DNA of 64,000 nucleotides, from contig CAMXIF010000001.1 of assembly GCA_947243845.1 (NCBI GenBank), positions 1 through 64,000 of the forward strand, given 5' to 3'. The translations under genes were made by a program, and so were the position numbers. The notes below the pieces were generated by a model, which did not search any database, was not told where the DNA came from, and worked only from the letters and a program-made list of their open reading frames with translations. The stretch is from an uncultured bacterium (GTDB taxonomy: Bacteria; Bacillota; Clostridia; Lachnospirales; Lachnospiraceae). Shown here piece by piece: positions 18,524-45,344 of the stretch (its first letter is position 1; every line of letters starts with the position of its first letter).

Positions 18524-18529
18524 AGAACT

Positions 18530-18720
18530 AACCTGAAATGTGCGACTAAGTCTTGTTATTTTGAACCTACAGATACTTTAAACGGGATTCCTACATTGTC
18601 ATATGGATGCCAGGCCTCCAGCCTTTAGGCTTTGTGCAGTGGAAGGCAGAAGTATGGTTGCGGTTACCCACCTAGCTTTGCTAGGAGTCAAAATACAAGA
18701 TCCGGCATTTCGGGGGAATA
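18530..18720 (+). ncRNA. ssrS: 6S RNA
   Basis: This RNA mimics an open promoter and sequesters sigma-A RNA polymerase. The 5' arm CCTGAAATGTGCGA (18532-18545) pairs with the 3' arm ending CCGGCATTTCGGGG (18702-18715), the conserved closing stem of 6S RNAs (compare the enterobacterial GAGATGTTCGC and GGCATCTCGG). Inside, TCTTGT with ACAAGA and ATTTTGA with TCAAAAT continue a long rod around a central bulge, and a strong inner hairpin (CCACCTAGCTTTGCTAGG region) is present. About 190 nt, the usual size. No protein-coding frame runs through it. It has its own promoter and terminator. Confidence 0.85.
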
Positions 18721-22124: not shown

Positions 22125-22409
22125 CAAATGGAGAAATTTTAATAATAAAAGGCAAAGAAGGTGCCAGTAGGATATTATTTTCCGCAAGAGATAGGGAATC
22201 AGCGGCTGGAAGTTCCCTTCGGTTCAAATGATAATCTGAATTTCCCACCGGAGCCGCCTGTGCGAACCAATAGTAGTGCAGGACGTATCGGCACGTTACG
22301 CCAAATGAAGTGTCTGTTGCAGTGGCTGCATCGCATCAACAAACAACAGAAACCTGGGTGGTACCGCGGATTATATTCGTCCCATGTGTAAAACACATGG
22401 GACTTTTTT
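22125..22409 (+). promoter_or_regulatory. T-box leader controlling pheS-pheT
   Basis: The hallmark T-box sequence AACCTGGGTGGTACCGCGG is at 22351-22369. It is followed by a terminator, GTCCCATGTGT (22379-22389) paired with CACATGGGAC (22394-22403), then six T. The upstream part holds the stem I region, with an apical hairpin GGAA/TTCC near 22197-22217. Several TTC triplets (22217-22245) could be the phenylalanine specifier; I cannot fix which from the sequence alone. Uncharged tRNA-Phe binding would favour the antiterminator and switch on the downstream synthetase genes. Confidence 0.9.
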
Positions 22410-41547: not shown

Positions 41548-43527
41548 ATGGCAGCTAGTGAGTATGCAACAGCGTTAAGACAGGGACGGCGCAGTTATCG
41601 AACCGCGCTCAGTAAGGGGGAATATCCTTATCTTCCGGTATTGGATGATATGATATCTTATACCGAGGTCGCATCTATTGAAAATCTGGGGATTATGGAC
41701 ATTCCCTTATCCAAAATAGTGGGAACGAAGACAGAGGGAAGGGCGAATGCCTTTGCCAATAATTTTATGCCGCTTCTTCCGGAAGAGTCAGAATTCGGCA
41801 GAAAATGGGCGGCTGTGTACGAGCATCAGATTGATGATGGTATTAACGATCCGATCATTGCTTATGAGTTTATGAACCAGTTTTATGTACAGGAGGGGAA
41901 TAAGCGCGTCAGTGTGATGAAGTACCTTAAGACTTACAGCCTTCCGGCGAGTGTCACCCGTCTGGTTCCCAAAAGGTCAGAGGAAAAAGAAAATCGTCTG
42001 TATTATGAATTTTTGGATTTTTATGAAGTATCACACAGCTATGACGTCTGTTTTTCTAAAGAGGGAAACTATCAGAAACTGTTGAAATATATGGGGAAAA
42101 AGGCAGATGAACCCTGGAGTGATGATGACAGAATGAATTTTCATTCTGCATGCTATAATTTTGGGCTTGCGTTTAGTAAGGCGAGTGGCGAGAAATTGGA
42201 CATCAATGTGTCCGATGCGTTCCTGATTTATGTGGAAATATATGGTTATGATAAAGTGGCGGAACAGACAGAGCAAGAGATAAGCCGTTCCCTTCAGAAG
42301 ATGTGGACGGAGATCACGCTTGCTGATCAGGGAAGCCAGGTAGAACTGGTACAGAACCCGGAGAATGTAAAGTCCACCCTCTTGAACAAACTGCTTCCTC
42401 TGTGGATTCCGGACTCCCTGAAAATAGCATTTATTTATACAAAGACCAGAGAGACTTCCAGCTGGGCTTATGCGCATGAACTGGGGAGATTGTATCTGGA
42501 ACAGGCTTTTGCCGGCAGGATAGAGACGATGGCTTTCGAAAATGCAGACAGTGAGGCGCAGGTGGAGAAAGCTATCGATCAGGCGGTTGCGGATGGCTGT
42601 GAATTAATCTTTACCACGGCTTCACAGATGGTAAACCAGAGTGTGCGTTCCGCGATTCAGTATCCGAAGGTAAAGATATATAACTGCTCCATTAAGATGT
42701 CCTATTCTTCCATCTGCACGTACTATGCAAGGATGTACGAGTCCAAATTCCTGATGGGCGCGATTGCTGCGGCATTATCCCGTATAGACAGATTGGGATA
42801 TGTGGCTGATTATCCCATTTATGGAGCGCTTGCGAATATCAATGCTTTTGCGCTGGGGGCCAAAATGATCAATCCCTACGTTAAAATACACCTGGAGTGG
42901 GCGAAGGTTAAAGGAGTCGATGCCAGGGAAAGGCTTAAACAGGAAGGGATTGTATTTGTGTCTGACAGTGATATGATTACGCCTGAGAAAGCGTCCAGAG
43001 CATATGGACTCTATATCAAAAAAGATGATGGAACCTTGGAAAATTTGGCTACACCAATCTGGGATTGGGGTAAATTTTATGAGCGGATCATTAAAAATAT
43101 ATTCAGCGGCGGCAGTACGGAATCCGATGCCCAGAAGGGTAAAAAAGCAGTCAATTACTGGTGGGGCATGTCAGCGGATGTCATTGATGTCATCTGCTCC
43201 AAATCCATGCCGGATGGAACTGCCAGATTGATCGGACTTCTGAAAAATTCAATCCGCACCGGAGAATTTCAGCCTTTTGGCGGGCCGATCTATTCCCAGA
43301 GCGGTGTCTTGCAGTGTGAGAAGGGAAAGAGTCTGGGGGCGGACGAGATCATCACCATGGATTGGCTTGCAGAGAATGTGATTGGCAAGATTCCGGAACT
43401 GGAAGAATTGACTGAGGATGCCAGGGCGCTGGTGGAATTTCAGGGAATTAAAGTAGATGAAACCGGTACGGAGAAAAAAGCCGGTGCTGTAAATGACAGG
43501 TCGGGCGAGAGCGGAGGACAGGAATGA
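41548..43527 (+). CDS. Signal-less BMP-domain protein with ParB-like N-terminal motif
   Basis: A 659-residue protein. The N-terminal 280 residues include YEFMNQFYVQEGNKRVSVMKYL (about 112-133), whose EGNKRVSV closely resembles the nucleotide-binding motif of ParB/Srx-fold proteins. The second half (about 290-600) is a BMP/PnrA-type binding-protein domain (IAFIYTKTRETSSWAYAHELGRLY, DGCELIFTTASQM, YESKFLMGAIAAALSRIDRLGYVADY, NYWWGMSADVIDV). There is no signal peptide or membrane segment, so the ligand domain should be cytoplasmic. The start follows AAGGAGG. The stop overlaps the ATG of a phosphoesterase gene (ATGA). A role in nucleoside or nucleotide sensing is inference. Confidence 0.8.
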   Translation: MAASEYATALRQGRRSYRTALSKGEYPYLPVLDDMISYTEVASIENLGIMDIPLSKIVGTKTEGRANAFANNFMPLLPEESEFGRKWAAVYEHQIDDGINDPIIAYEFMNQFYVQEGNKRVSVMKYLKTYSLPASVTRLVPKRSEEKENRLYYEFLDFYEVSHSYDVCFSKEGNYQKLLKYMGKKADEPWSDDDRMNFHSACYNFGLAFSKASGEKLDINVSDAFLIYVEIYGYDKVAEQTEQEISRSLQKMWTEITLADQGSQVELVQNPENVKSTLLNKLLPLWIPDSLKIAFIYTKTRETSSWAYAHELGRLYLEQAFAGRIETMAFENADSEAQVEKAIDQAVADGCELIFTTASQMVNQSVRSAIQYPKVKIYNCSIKMSYSSICTYYARMYESKFLMGAIAAALSRIDRLGYVADYPIYGALANINAFALGAKMINPYVKIHLEWAKVKGVDARERLKQEGIVFVSDSDMITPEKASRAYGLYIKKDDGTLENLATPIWDWGKFYERIIKNIFSGGSTESDAQKGKKAVNYWWGMSADVIDVICSKSMPDGTARLIGLLKNSIRTGEFQPFGGPIYSQSGVLQCEKGKSLGADEIITMDWLAENVIGKIPELEELTEDARALVEFQGIKVDETGTEKKAGAVNDRSGESGGQE

Positions 43528-44147
43528 AAATCTTAGTACTAGCCGACCAGAAATCTAAATATTTGTACGACTTTTATGACAGGGATAAGATTAAAGACGT
43601 TGATCTTATTATTTCCTGTGGAGATCTTCCAGCAGTATATTTGTCGTTTTTTGTCACGCTTTGCAATGTGCCGCTTCTTTACGTCAGGGGAAACCATGAC
43701 GGTAAATATGAGGCGGCGCCCCCCGAGGGGTGTATTTGTATCGAGGATGATATTTATGTGTATCAGGGGATTCGTATTCTGGGGCTGGGTGGTTCCATGG
43801 AATATATTCCAAGGGCGGACAACCAGTATACGGAGCAGAAGATGAGAAAGCGGCTGTGGAAGCTGAAATATAAACTATGGAAGCATAAAGGGTTTGATAT
43901 TTTGGTGACTCATGCGCCGGCTCGTCAGATCAACGATCTGGAAGATCTGCCGCATCGCGGGTTTGAGGTCTTTCGGGAATTGATGGAGAAATATGAGCCG
44001 AAGTTTTTCTTTCACGGACATGTGCATGCCAATTACAGCAGAAATTTTAAAAGAATGGACAAGTACAAATCGACCACTATAGTCAATGGCTTTGAATATT
44101 ATATTGTGGAATATCCGCAGGAGGAGCAGTATCCGGAGGTATTGTAG
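43524..44147 (+). CDS. Metallophosphoesterase
   Basis: A 207-residue calcineurin-like phosphoesterase. Metal motifs GD (G33-D34 in SCGDLPA), GNHD (56-59), VTHAPA and HGHVHANY are intact. The first motif, normally DxH, reads DQK (D8, K10), so one metal-ligand histidine is replaced by lysine. Substrate unknown; relatives act on nucleotides, phosphoproteins or lipids. It begins inside the stop of the BMP-domain gene, a strong sign of joint production in fixed ratio. Confidence 0.88.
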   Translation: MKILVLADQKSKYLYDFYDRDKIKDVDLIISCGDLPAVYLSFFVTLCNVPLLYVRGNHDGKYEAAPPEGCICIEDDIYVYQGIRILGLGGSMEYIPRADNQYTEQKMRKRLWKLKYKLWKHKGFDILVTHAPARQINDLEDLPHRGFEVFRELMEKYEPKFFFHGHVHANYSRNFKRMDKYKSTTIVNGFEYYIVEYPQEEQYPEVL

Positions 44148-44157
44148 TATCCGGACA

Positions 44158-44187
44158 TTGACATGATAGTGCGGTTTATGTTATAGT
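44158..44187 (+). promoter_or_regulatory. Promoter of the erm locus
   Basis: TTGACA (44158-44163) and TATAGT (44182-44187), 18-bp spacer. Starts a leader of about 320 nt before the methyltransferase gene. Confidence 0.7.
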
Positions 44188-44237
44188 CGGCATAGTTAGA
44201 AATATTATGTATCATATATCAGGAAGGTGGCTTAAGC

Positions 44238-44285
44238 GTGGGAATTATTATTCGTTGTGCCCGCACCCGTATTCAGGGGCAGTAA
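44238..44285 (+). CDS. Putative Erm leader peptide (+X+ type)
   Basis: A 15-codon ORF, MGIIIRCARTRIQGQ, starting at GTG 44238 with AGGAAGGTGG seven bases upstream, a better site than most genes here. It contains R-T-R, fitting the Arg/Lys-X-Arg/Lys arrest motif at which macrolide-bound ribosomes stall. It ends 12 bases before an intrinsic terminator and lies upstream of an Erm gene. Induction by ribosome stalling is inferred from other erm loci. Confidence 0.7.
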   Translation: MGIIIRCARTRIQGQ

Positions 44286-44297
44286 AAGCAGATATAT

Positions 44298-44322
44298 AGT
44301 CTCATGGAAATGGGATTTTTTT
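44298..44322 (+). terminator. Attenuator hairpin after the leader peptide
   Basis: AGTCTCAT (44298-44305) and ATGGGATT (44310-44317) form a short stem with GGAA loop and two G-T pairs, followed by a run of T to 44322. Placed just after the leader stop, it would end most transcripts unless stalled ribosomes alter folding. Confidence 0.65.
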
Positions 44323-44356
44323 GCGTGCGAATAATACTTGCCATATTGCTTACCGG

Positions 44357-44382
44357 ACAGATGTGATGGAGATCATGTCTGT
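44357..44382 (+). promoter_or_regulatory. Leader hairpin in erm 5' region
   Basis: ACAGATGTGAT (44357-44367) and ATCATGTCTGT (44372-44382) pair over 11 positions with two G-T pairs and a GGAG loop; a possible SD-like sequence is thus held in the loop. Confidence 0.5.
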
Positions 44383-44406
44383 GTTGTCTGCCTTATTGTA
44401 TCGTTT

Positions 44407-44447
44407 AGCAGGAAGATTCTGTTTATGAGGATCATACCTGCTTTTTT
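44407..44447 (+). terminator. Second terminator-like hairpin in the erm leader
   Basis: AGCAGG (44407-44412) with CCTGCT (44437-44442) and, inside, GATTCT (44415-44420) with AGGATC (44428-44433); six T end at 44447. It overlaps the start of a possible second leader ORF. Confidence 0.65.
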
Positions 44448-44502
44448 ACTGCCTTTTTTCGGGACAGGATTCGCCTGCAGGCGATGGCAAAGGAACGAAT
44501 AA
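44425..44502 (+). CDS. Possible second leader ORF before erm
   Basis: A 25-codon ORF from ATG 44425 beginning MRIIPAF and ending FACRRWQRNE, stopping one base before the AAGGAGG of the methyltransferase gene. An AGGAA sequence lies about 11 bases upstream of its start. Its translation would disrupt the second terminator hairpin and the palindrome TCGCCTGCAGGCGA (44471-44484), and could control access to the erm ribosome binding site. Coding status is inference only. Confidence 0.4.
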   Translation: MRIIPAFLLPFFGTGFACRRWQRNE

Positions 44503-44516
44503 TAAGGAGGCACGCT

Positions 44517-45344
44517 ATGCGAAAGAGCAGGAGACAAGCAGGATATGATTATACAAAGCAGGTAACGGATTCACAGAATTTTCTGACAGATTCTACATTG
44601 CTTCACAGGATTGTCCGGCTGGCGGACATTCATAACAATGACACAGTGATTGAAATAGGGACCGGTAAAGGCCATCTGACGGAGGCACTTAGCAAAAGGG
44701 CCGGCAGGGTCTGCTCGGTGGAGATTGATACAAAACTCATAGAAATTGCCGGGAAACGTCTGGCGAAGTATTCCAATCTGGAATTGATATCGGGGGACTT
44801 TTTAAAATACCGTCTGCCCTCAAAGGGCGAGTATAAGGTGTTTGCCAATATACCGTATTTTATCACCACTCAGATTGTGGATAAACTGACACAGGGAGAT
44901 AATCTTCCGACAGACATTTTTCTTGTGATGGAGAAAGGGGCAGCCAAAAGATTTATGGGACTGCCCAAAGAGACTAAGAAATCTCTGGAGCTTAAGGTGC
45001 GATGGGATATGAAGATGGTATATCATTTTCGTAGGGAGGATTTCCATCCCAAACCATCTGTAGATTCTGTTCTGATACATTTCTCCAGAAAGTCAGTACC
45101 GGATCTTGACAGGGAACAATACCGGGAATTTCAGAAATTTGTTGAGCAGAGCATGAAGTATGGTATGACGGGAAAAGGAGGACCGCTTACGAAAAGGCAG
45201 GTGTCGGCGGCACTGAGACAGGCGGGACTGAATAAAGCGCATGAGGACGGTGTCACCCTCTATATCCAGTGGCTCTGTCTGTTTCGATATTTCAAGAAAA
45301 CAGTTGACAAATCCCGCAAGTATAATAAAATTAGAAGAGTATGA
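44517..45344 (+). CDS. erm: Erm-type 23S rRNA adenine-N6 methyltransferase
   Basis: A 275-residue rRNA methyltransferase. Motif X is DSQNFLTDSTLL (18-29), motif I is EIGTGKGHLTEAL (46-58), the acidic motif II is VEID (68-71), and motif IV is NIPYF (111-115), as in Erm proteins; FHPKPSVDSVLIHF is also shared. By family it methylates A2058 of 23S rRNA and blocks macrolide, lincosamide and streptogramin B binding. The housekeeping relative KsgA is less likely given EIGTGKG and the inducible-looking leader. The start at 44517 has AAGGAGG six bases upstream; the frame extends to ATG 44484 but that would bury this site. The N-terminus is basic. Confidence 0.9.
   Translation: MRKSRRQAGYDYTKQVTDSQNFLTDSTLLHRIVRLADIHNNDTVIEIGTGKGHLTEALSKRAGRVCSVEIDTKLIEIAGKRLAKYSNLELISGDFLKYRLPSKGEYKVFANIPYFITTQIVDKLTQGDNLPTDIFLVMEKGAAKRFMGLPKETKKSLELKVRWDMKMVYHFRREDFHPKPSVDSVLIHFSRKSVPDLDREQYREFQKFVEQSMKYGMTGKGGPLTKRQVSAALRQAGLNKAHEDGVTLYIQWLCLFRYFKKTVDKSRKYNKIRRV

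Follow-up and report, generated by a model that had tools for sequence, protein, structure and literature searches.

The window, by which we mean the whole 64,000-nucleotide stretch of DNA analysed here, lies on contig C1 of genome G000 (3.39 Mb), whose nearest named relatives are uncultured Lachnospiraceae. It carries a predicted rRNA methyltransferase (erm) gene, flanked by a calcineurin-like phosphoesterase gene (43524-44147) and leuS. The gene and the parts of its 5' region are as follows.

44158-44187, + strand: promoter with -35 TTGACA, N18 spacer and extended -10 TATAGT (from the sequence)
44221-44230, + strand: leader Shine-Dalgarno sequence AGGAAGGTGG (GAAAGG present in 22 of 24 leaders)
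44238-44285, + strand: leader peptide of 15 codons with a GTG start, VGIIIRCARTRIQGQ (Shine-Dalgarno on its 5' side, stop at 44283-44285)
44240-44254, + strand: helix arm A, within leader codons 1-6 (pairs with A', with compensatory changes)
44262-44270, + strand: R-T-R of the leader, codons 9-11 (R-x-R in all 24 leaders studied)
44278-44295, + strand: arm B, the equivalent of mef(E) dIR1, across the leader end and stop (18-nt near-complement of B')
44298-44322, + strand: T1 hairpin with a seven-U tract, terminator-like or a pause (folding energy -7.4 kcal/mol)
44308-44324, + strand: arm D, made of the end of the T1 loop, its 3' arm and U-tract (complementary to D')
44328-44342, + strand: arm A' (duplex permutation test and covariation)
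44357-44382, + strand: middle hairpin, in the position of mef(E) R3/R4 (absent from L006)
44407-44447, + strand: T2, a predicted intrinsic terminator, AGCAGG...CCTGCT followed by TTTTTT (folding, conservation and likeness to mef(E))
44408-44424, + strand: arm D', within T2 (complement of arm D)
44425-44502, + strand: second open reading frame, 25 codons (real letters, not conserved)
44434-44453, + strand: arm B', the equivalent of dIR2, overlapping the T2 3' arm and U-tract (complement of B)
44471-44484, + strand: palindrome of 14 bp, exact here; some members of the family have a weak third hairpin at this place (from the sequence)
44504-44510, + strand: erm Shine-Dalgarno sequence AAGGAGG (from the sequence)
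44517-45344, + strand: erm, predicted 23S rRNA adenine N6-methyltransferase, 275 aa (broad NCBIfam Erm model and tree)

A previous sequence-only reading of this locus had proposed that the gene has its own promoter, a well-initiated 15-codon leader with R-T-R and two further hairpins (the middle hairpin and T2), and all of these are present. It had also placed a terminator 12 bases past the leader. The T1 hairpin does begin 12 bases past the leader stop and ends in seven T; a simple terminator scan reported a single other site, where chance would give 1.7, and missed both T1 and T2, so that folding, conservation and resemblance to mef(E) are the grounds for regarding the two as terminators. 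The 5' region of the window folds better than 100 of 100 dinucleotide shuffles (z -3.63), the whole of it forming one rod. Among 4227 Rfam models, none matched this region at its gathering score, and one match (E 4.4) fell below it. Elsewhere in the window, a 6S RNA (18527-18720) and a T-box leader (22146-22387) both score over their Rfam gathering scores.

A divergent Erm-type protein

On its sequence, the window protein is an Erm-type enzyme. It scores 223.3 bits with the broad NCBIfam Erm model (cut-off 212) and 140.1 bits with the KsgA model, below the cut-off of 171 for the latter. With the class-specific Erm models among 25 of the 31 model rows it remains far under the models' own cut-offs, the best being Erm(A) with 146 of 475. 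Global alignments gave 25-34% identity to Erm(A), (B), (C), (T), (42), (F), (X) and one further plasmid Erm. A tblastn search of 72,556 plasmid records found a match in 1787, all under 60% identity, and the plasmid matches listed are less than 37% identical to the window Erm; viral contigs held no relative of it. The closest solved chains are ErmC' and 1yub, which is named only as an rRNA methyltransferase and which we take to be ErmAM. As the earlier reading had supposed, this is a chromosomal protein of the Erm type that fits none of the named classes tested. The finding set beforehand as counting against that reading, close identity with an established class, was not seen: the protein is less than 37% identical to the named Erms compared in the matches listed, with Erm(Q) not among them. 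Judging by its family and by the motif in the leader, its target would be A2058 of 23S rRNA.

A KsgA/RsmA-type 16S dimethylase paralogue equipped with an attenuator would share the fold and could account for the 140 bits obtained with the KsgA model. We regard this as exceedingly unlikely, given that the KsgA score is under its cut-off and the Erm score over its own, and that a separate, less similar gene on contig C13 of G000 (36% identity to the window Erm) is taken as KsgA. The tree argues the same way: the family and the distant locus L034 group with ErmA, ErmB, ErmC and ErmT (98/99) and separate from these genomes' own KsgA proteins. This tree was built without L036, the cut copy L020 and L019, whose copy is split on its contig. 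It places ErmF and ErmX on the side of KsgA, where both sit on very long branches, with a long-branch warning that makes such placements unsure.

The term 'undescribed' used by the earlier reading needs qualifying in two respects: bulk predictions of many Clostridia Erm families exist (PMC8914350), and the mef(E)/mel architecture described below is published (PMC4335068). The bulk survey predicted 392 uncharacterised erm families, including a Clostridia cluster, F.2, around erm(Q), with families mainly from Clostridia or from gut and wastewater metagenomes; a divergent clostridial Erm is thus no surprise in itself. The term 'leader' is absent from the main text of that survey.

Within the same Lachnospiraceae genus, 20 of 60 genomes have an orthologue of the window erm, three of these copies being a fragment, split or cut (G052, G002, G011), and outside the genus we found one in a single genome of 38 (G066). 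Mean pairwise identity across 18 genomes is 70% for Erm and 71.5% for KsgA, and the two correlate (rho 0.51, for pairs that are not independent). At six of 24 loci found by protein leuS lies downstream (L001, L002, L004, L006, L007 and L033; the flanks cover only 1.5-3 kb). These observations fit, and do not prove, an old and mainly vertically inherited erm gene with losses and moves. At L019 (G002:C24) the erm match lies in two pieces on one contig, and this copy may be broken.

The leader is conserved among orthologues

The 24 distinct loci found by protein with upstream DNA are L001-L020 and L033-L036, where L031 and L032, being contigs of L002 and L003, were counted once and L024, a fragment at a contig end, was left out. 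The element is present at 21 of them, in orthologues down to 59% protein identity, a recurrence that argues against chance. To these 21 we added three (L043-L045) that were found with the leader model itself and are hence biased towards it, giving the 24 leaders studied here. All 24 have an open reading frame of 11-16 codons with R-T-R or R-I-R, and they share the T1 hairpin with its U-tract and the T2 terminator. A promoter-like site (best score at least 9 of 12) precedes every one of them, with TTGACA itself in 21 and a poor -10 in L014. Six T follow T1 in 21 of 21 aligned leaders, and the T2 folding energy is -14.3 kcal/mol in the window and -11.7 to -19.7 kcal/mol across 21 leaders. The feature is real and conserved.

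Two covariance models were built, R1 from the erm leaders and R2 from the R1 set plus mef leaders. The three most distant protein-found loci, L034, L035 and L036, gave no credible match to either. They have short upstream reading frames, MIRSIRIR in L034 (48% identity), MFGTSNRIRK in L035 (51%) and MFVNGRTHLS in L036 (57%), and were left out of the 24. Upstream of position 3001 in L036, hairpins similar by eye can be seen that do not match the models.

In L005 the peptide ends directly after R-T-R, and the downstream letters GGGGCAGTAAAA are kept, as is most of B; the retention of these letters past the early stop suggests that they serve the RNA. With its leader cut after R-T-R, one B letter changed and no switch in silico, L005 (G033) is possibly a decaying regulator.

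Two smaller parts of the sequence-only reading did not extend to the family. The second leader reading frame, said to end at the erm ribosome binding site, is real in its letters and starts in the T2 loop, and an equivalent that begins near T2 and stops 3 nt before the core of the ribosome binding site exists in only four of 24 leaders, with differing start codons (ATG in L001, GTG in L012, L013 and L015). The frame ends early in L003, has no start in seven of 24 leaders, runs for 12 codons from a start after T2 in L007 and has a TTG start in L018; the residues shared, PAFLL, fall in conserved T2/B' letters. We rejected it as a second leader. The 14-bp palindrome is exact in the window, and its perfect form is not conserved: only part of the family has a hairpin at this position, of varying sequence and placed like R7/R8 of mef(E).

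Long-range helices in the leader

Comparison of the leaders shows three long-range helices. Leader codons 1-6 pair with a segment beyond T1 (A:A'), the end of the leader pairs with the T2 3' arm and U-tract (B:B'), and the T1 3' arm and U-tract pair with the T2 5' arm (D:D'). The mean energies of own duplexes in 21 leaders are -20.8, -23.9 and -17.3 kcal/mol for A:A', B:B' and D:D', against -7.8, -10.2 and -7.0 kcal/mol with shuffled partners. The fraction of 2000 permutations at least as good was 0 for A:A', 0.0015 for the arms of T2, 0.0035 for B:B' and 0.03 for D:D', and 0.15-0.76 for eight other segment pairs in the 21 leaders; these permutation and shuffle tests ignore the relatedness of the leaders. 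D:D' is an addition of the present analysis and is not named in the sections of PMC4335068 on mef(E).

The A:A' helix also covaries. Across 21 leaders, 8 of its 15 pairs changed on both sides, giving 20 double-change cells compared with 5.5 in shuffles, none of 500 shuffles reaching 20; slid versions of the helix were all lower, and its halves are 78% and 96% paired. With mef leaders added the figures are 12 pairs and 35 cells (17 rows, in an alignment fitted to the structure). T1 showed no covariation of its own in the 21 leaders.

The seven U at the end of T1 in the window, together with its conservation, could mean that T1 is the main regulated terminator. This is very unlikely in our judgement: we found no conserved upstream competitor for T1, each leader's A and B arms pair with its D no better than with permuted partners, A' and D' are synthesised after the T1 U-tract, and in mef(E) the stop mapped by RNA-seq lies at R5/R6, the equivalent of T2 (PMC4335068). 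T1 is probably a pause site or a weak terminator.

A masked leader is predicted to open the T2 terminator

We folded the transcript up to the T2 U-tract with nothing bound (free RNA) and with a mask from the 5' end through a ribosome that has the x of R-x-R in its P site. In the free RNA, all 24 erm leaders form A:A', D:D' does not exceed 0.1 expected pairs, and 23 of 24 leaders have T2 paired above 0.5 (L016 has 0.19), so that the free state is predicted to be off. When the leader is masked, T2 falls from above 0.5 to below 0.4 and is replaced by B:B' and D:D' in 20 of 24 leaders. Among dinucleotide shuffles of the sequence upstream of T2, 19 of 360 behave like a switch. L005, L011 and L018 do not switch under the mask, and T2 in L016 is already low when free.

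The position of the ribosome matters in these models. A bare 31-nt footprint at R-x-R takes T2 below 0.4 in 15 of 24 leaders, the other nine not switching. Placed three codons past x, the same footprint does so in one (L016, low anyway). With the footprint moved to the final sense codon, so that the stop occupies the A site, again only L016 is affected, T2 being kept in 23 of 24. Upstream, T2 was opened in 15 of 24 leaders by a footprint on the start codon and in 8 and 10 of 24 by footprints four and two codons before x. These results indicate that the stretch of codons from R-x-R to the stop can determine the logic: in the models, a stalled ribosome can cover A and leave most of B, and a terminating one can cover B and leave A. 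These are equilibrium folds, which differ from co-transcriptional folding, and as soon as all of B' is included the window's minimum-energy structure is the antiterminator rod even without the mask.

We propose the following sequence of events. Without drug, a ribosome would complete the leader and depart, leaving leader codons 1-6 (A) to pair with A' around T1; arm D would then be unavailable, T2 would form and RNA polymerase would halt before erm. With a macrolide, a ribosome would stall at R-T-R, covering A and leaving most of B free, D would pair with the T2 5' arm (D') and B with the T2 3' arm and U-tract (B'), and T2, blocked by both helices, would allow erm to be transcribed. That the ribosome stalls, and that a macrolide is the drug, is suggested by the leader motif and the Erm family.

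The erm ribosome binding site is not predicted to be freed

The mean accessibility of the erm Shine-Dalgarno sequence is 0.53 in the free RNA and 0.35 with the leader masked (23 leaders, without L018), and in the window it falls from 1.00 to 0.04. This predicted trend is opposite to that of translation attenuation, and in the window's own case the low access under the mask would be a difficulty for strong expression. A scheme in the style of erm(C), in which stalling exposes the ribosome binding site and neither T1 nor T2 has a role, runs against this modelled accessibility, which does not rise with a stalled ribosome, and against the conservation of T2 with its U-tract and of the complement of its 3' arm; we give it hardly any credence. 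The mixed transcription and translation attenuation suggested by the sequence-only reading is thus borne out in silico for transcription and not for translation.

A double control like that of Bacillus subtilis tlrB has more in its favour. Here B:B' and a second U-tract (44454-44459) would form a long terminator, arm A would sequester the erm ribosome binding site (44245-44256 with 44494-44505), and a stalled ribosome would break both. B. subtilis tlrB is reported to work in this way with an R-Y-R leader (PMC6851288), and the window offers a perfect 12-bp complement between A and the ribosome binding site, a U-tract after B' and a 5' region that folds as one rod. The 12-bp complement is the same in L003 and is broken in L002, its permutation support is weak (0.0145 of 2000 permutations were at least as good), masking the leader does not free the ribosome binding site, and no U-tract follows B' in streptococcal-type mef(A), L014 or L020. 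We rejected this sequestration as a candidate pairing and consider the double control unlikely. A macrolide-inducible transcriptional attenuator remains the most likely reading of the modelled and comparative data.

Comparison with known attenuators

The same order of parts, with an R-x-R leader, a long helix, a hairpin, a terminator and distal repeats over the terminator and poly-U, has been described for the Streptococcus mef(E)/mel (mef(A)/msr(D)) attenuator (PMC4335068). According to that account, the leader MTASMRLR is followed by a long R1/R2 helix, R3/R4 and the Rho-independent terminator R5/R6, with an anti-attenuator made of dIR1, six bases past the leader, and dIR2, which overlies the terminator with its poly-U. 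It has genetic and RNA-seq support, and without macrolide, reads end at R5/R6. Deletion of dIR1 raised uninduced expression, for which the authors invoke a new pairing (PMC4335068); a simple antiterminator arm does not predict this outcome. The counterparts in the window are A:A' enclosing T1, the middle hairpin, T2, B and B'. By sequence and in silico, the window shows an R-x-R leader, an A:A' helix that excludes D:D' and a T2 overlapped by B:B', as expected of a mef(E)-type element. It differs from mef(E) in that its gene encodes a methylase and not an efflux pump, its leader is VGIIIRCARTRIQGQ and not MTASMRLR, and its host belongs to the Lachnospiraceae.

The B letters are near-identical in the two systems, GGCAGTAAAAGCAG in the window and GGCAATAAAAAAAGCAG in the mef(A) loci L060 (a Listeria plasmid) and L061 (a Streptococcus phage), where they lie after the leader with their complement at the terminator. 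With these two leaders masked, D:D' has 13-18 expected pairs; in their free RNA, T2 is already displaced (0.22 and 0.06), unlike in nearly all erm leaders. The covariance models found streptococcal-type mef(A) with E 1.4 (R1) and with E 0.14 (R2), the latter in the right place and the best of its search, neither being significant.

Two other systems share part of this design. Transcription of Bacillus erm(K)/erm(D), known here from a description in PMC4335068, is controlled by attenuation with an R-L-R leader; unlike the window, these genes have an MTHSMRLR-type leader, with two adjacent terminators in erm(K). B. subtilis tlrB (yxjB) combines an R-x-R leader, a terminator and a 23S rRNA methylase in a macrolide-dependent system, and differs in the account of PMC6851288 in having no overlapping antiterminator identified, a reported sequestration of the ribosome binding site, tylosin as the drug and G748 as the target. 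Among the matches listed, we found no literature on this erm leader, in a search with most subscription journals outside it. The kind of attenuator is known; its pairing with this Erm, the leader peptide and the use of a shared element were not found among the literature matches listed.

The element precedes other resistance-type genes

R1 matched 17 of 397 genomes of the family, four times before erm and 13 times before mef-like genes. Ten of these 13 matches have an identical leader, come from ten genera and are identical to L046 over 1.2-2.3 kb. These loci (L046-L055, about 1440-1910 on the mef strand) form a recently spread element in which an attenuator of this type precedes a mef-like efflux gene, and their leader is only VLICVR, which has no R-x-R. 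Two mef-like proteins score below the Mef(A) cut-off of 675, with 528 (for the first 382 residues of one) and 555 (another), and the first is less than 60% identical to every plasmid and phage match. In a search of plasmid DNA, the leader of the Lachnospiraceae mef gene gave a match for only 44 nt upstream of its promoter. Four mef/MFS leaders were folded, and L046, L058 and L059 switch and L056 does not. In the order sample 11 of 392 genomes matched and in the class sample 3 of 391; the family, order, class and phylum samples overlap, so that their counts are not additive.

R2 again matched 17 of 397 genomes in the family. In the phylum sample it matched 6 of 319, four of them outside the family (five loci, with weak E values of 0.0014-0.035, some possibly due to chance); L096, a 29-nt match, was left out. 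Four of the five extra-family loci were read, and all four precede resistance-type genes: a Mef(A) of 783.6 bits, above the cut-off, with the leader MYSIRLR; two Msr-type ABC-F proteins, partial reads under the model cut-off, with the leaders MYSVRLR and MFLFFG; and an RlmN/Cfr-type radical SAM enzyme (L093:1500-2754) with the leader MLHSIRIWK. The L093 protein is below both the RlmN and the Cfr cut-offs and so may be a resistance-type paralogue. In L095 (about 1480-1835 on the gene strand), the leader MFLFFG of the Msr-type gene is followed by a reading frame MFYIYI, possibly a second leader. The mask displaces T2 in three of these four loci and not in L094. The B letters of L094 and L097 resemble those of mef(A), which bridges the two ends of the proposed leader family.

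Discussion

From the comparative sequence data and the folding models, we consider it highly probable that the window holds a chromosomal Erm rRNA methylase under a ribosome-mediated transcription attenuator of the mef(E)/mel type. A wider reading seems to us about evenly poised between true and false: that a single ancient attenuator family without a name of its own, known by A:A', B:B', D:D' and the distance from R-x-R to the stop, serves as a macrolide sensor shared by at least four unrelated Bacillota resistance gene types (Erm, Mef, Msr-type ABC-F and RlmN/Cfr-like), and has been inherited with the native erm since early in this Lachnospiraceae genus. Its defining feature would be a two-position logic, in which a ribosome at R-x-R means on and one at the stop, about 15 nt later, means off.

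For the well-studied mef(E) switch, the analysis supplies an extra long-range helix, and the 24 natural versions of the attenuator make the antitermination pairing by D:D' and B:B' testable. The searchable RNA model, which has no match in the Rfam release searched, links the leaders of erm, mef, ABC-F and RlmN/Cfr-like genes. For the organisms themselves, the findings suggest that inducible macrolide resistance is native to the chromosomes of a Lachnospiraceae genus, and not only imported.
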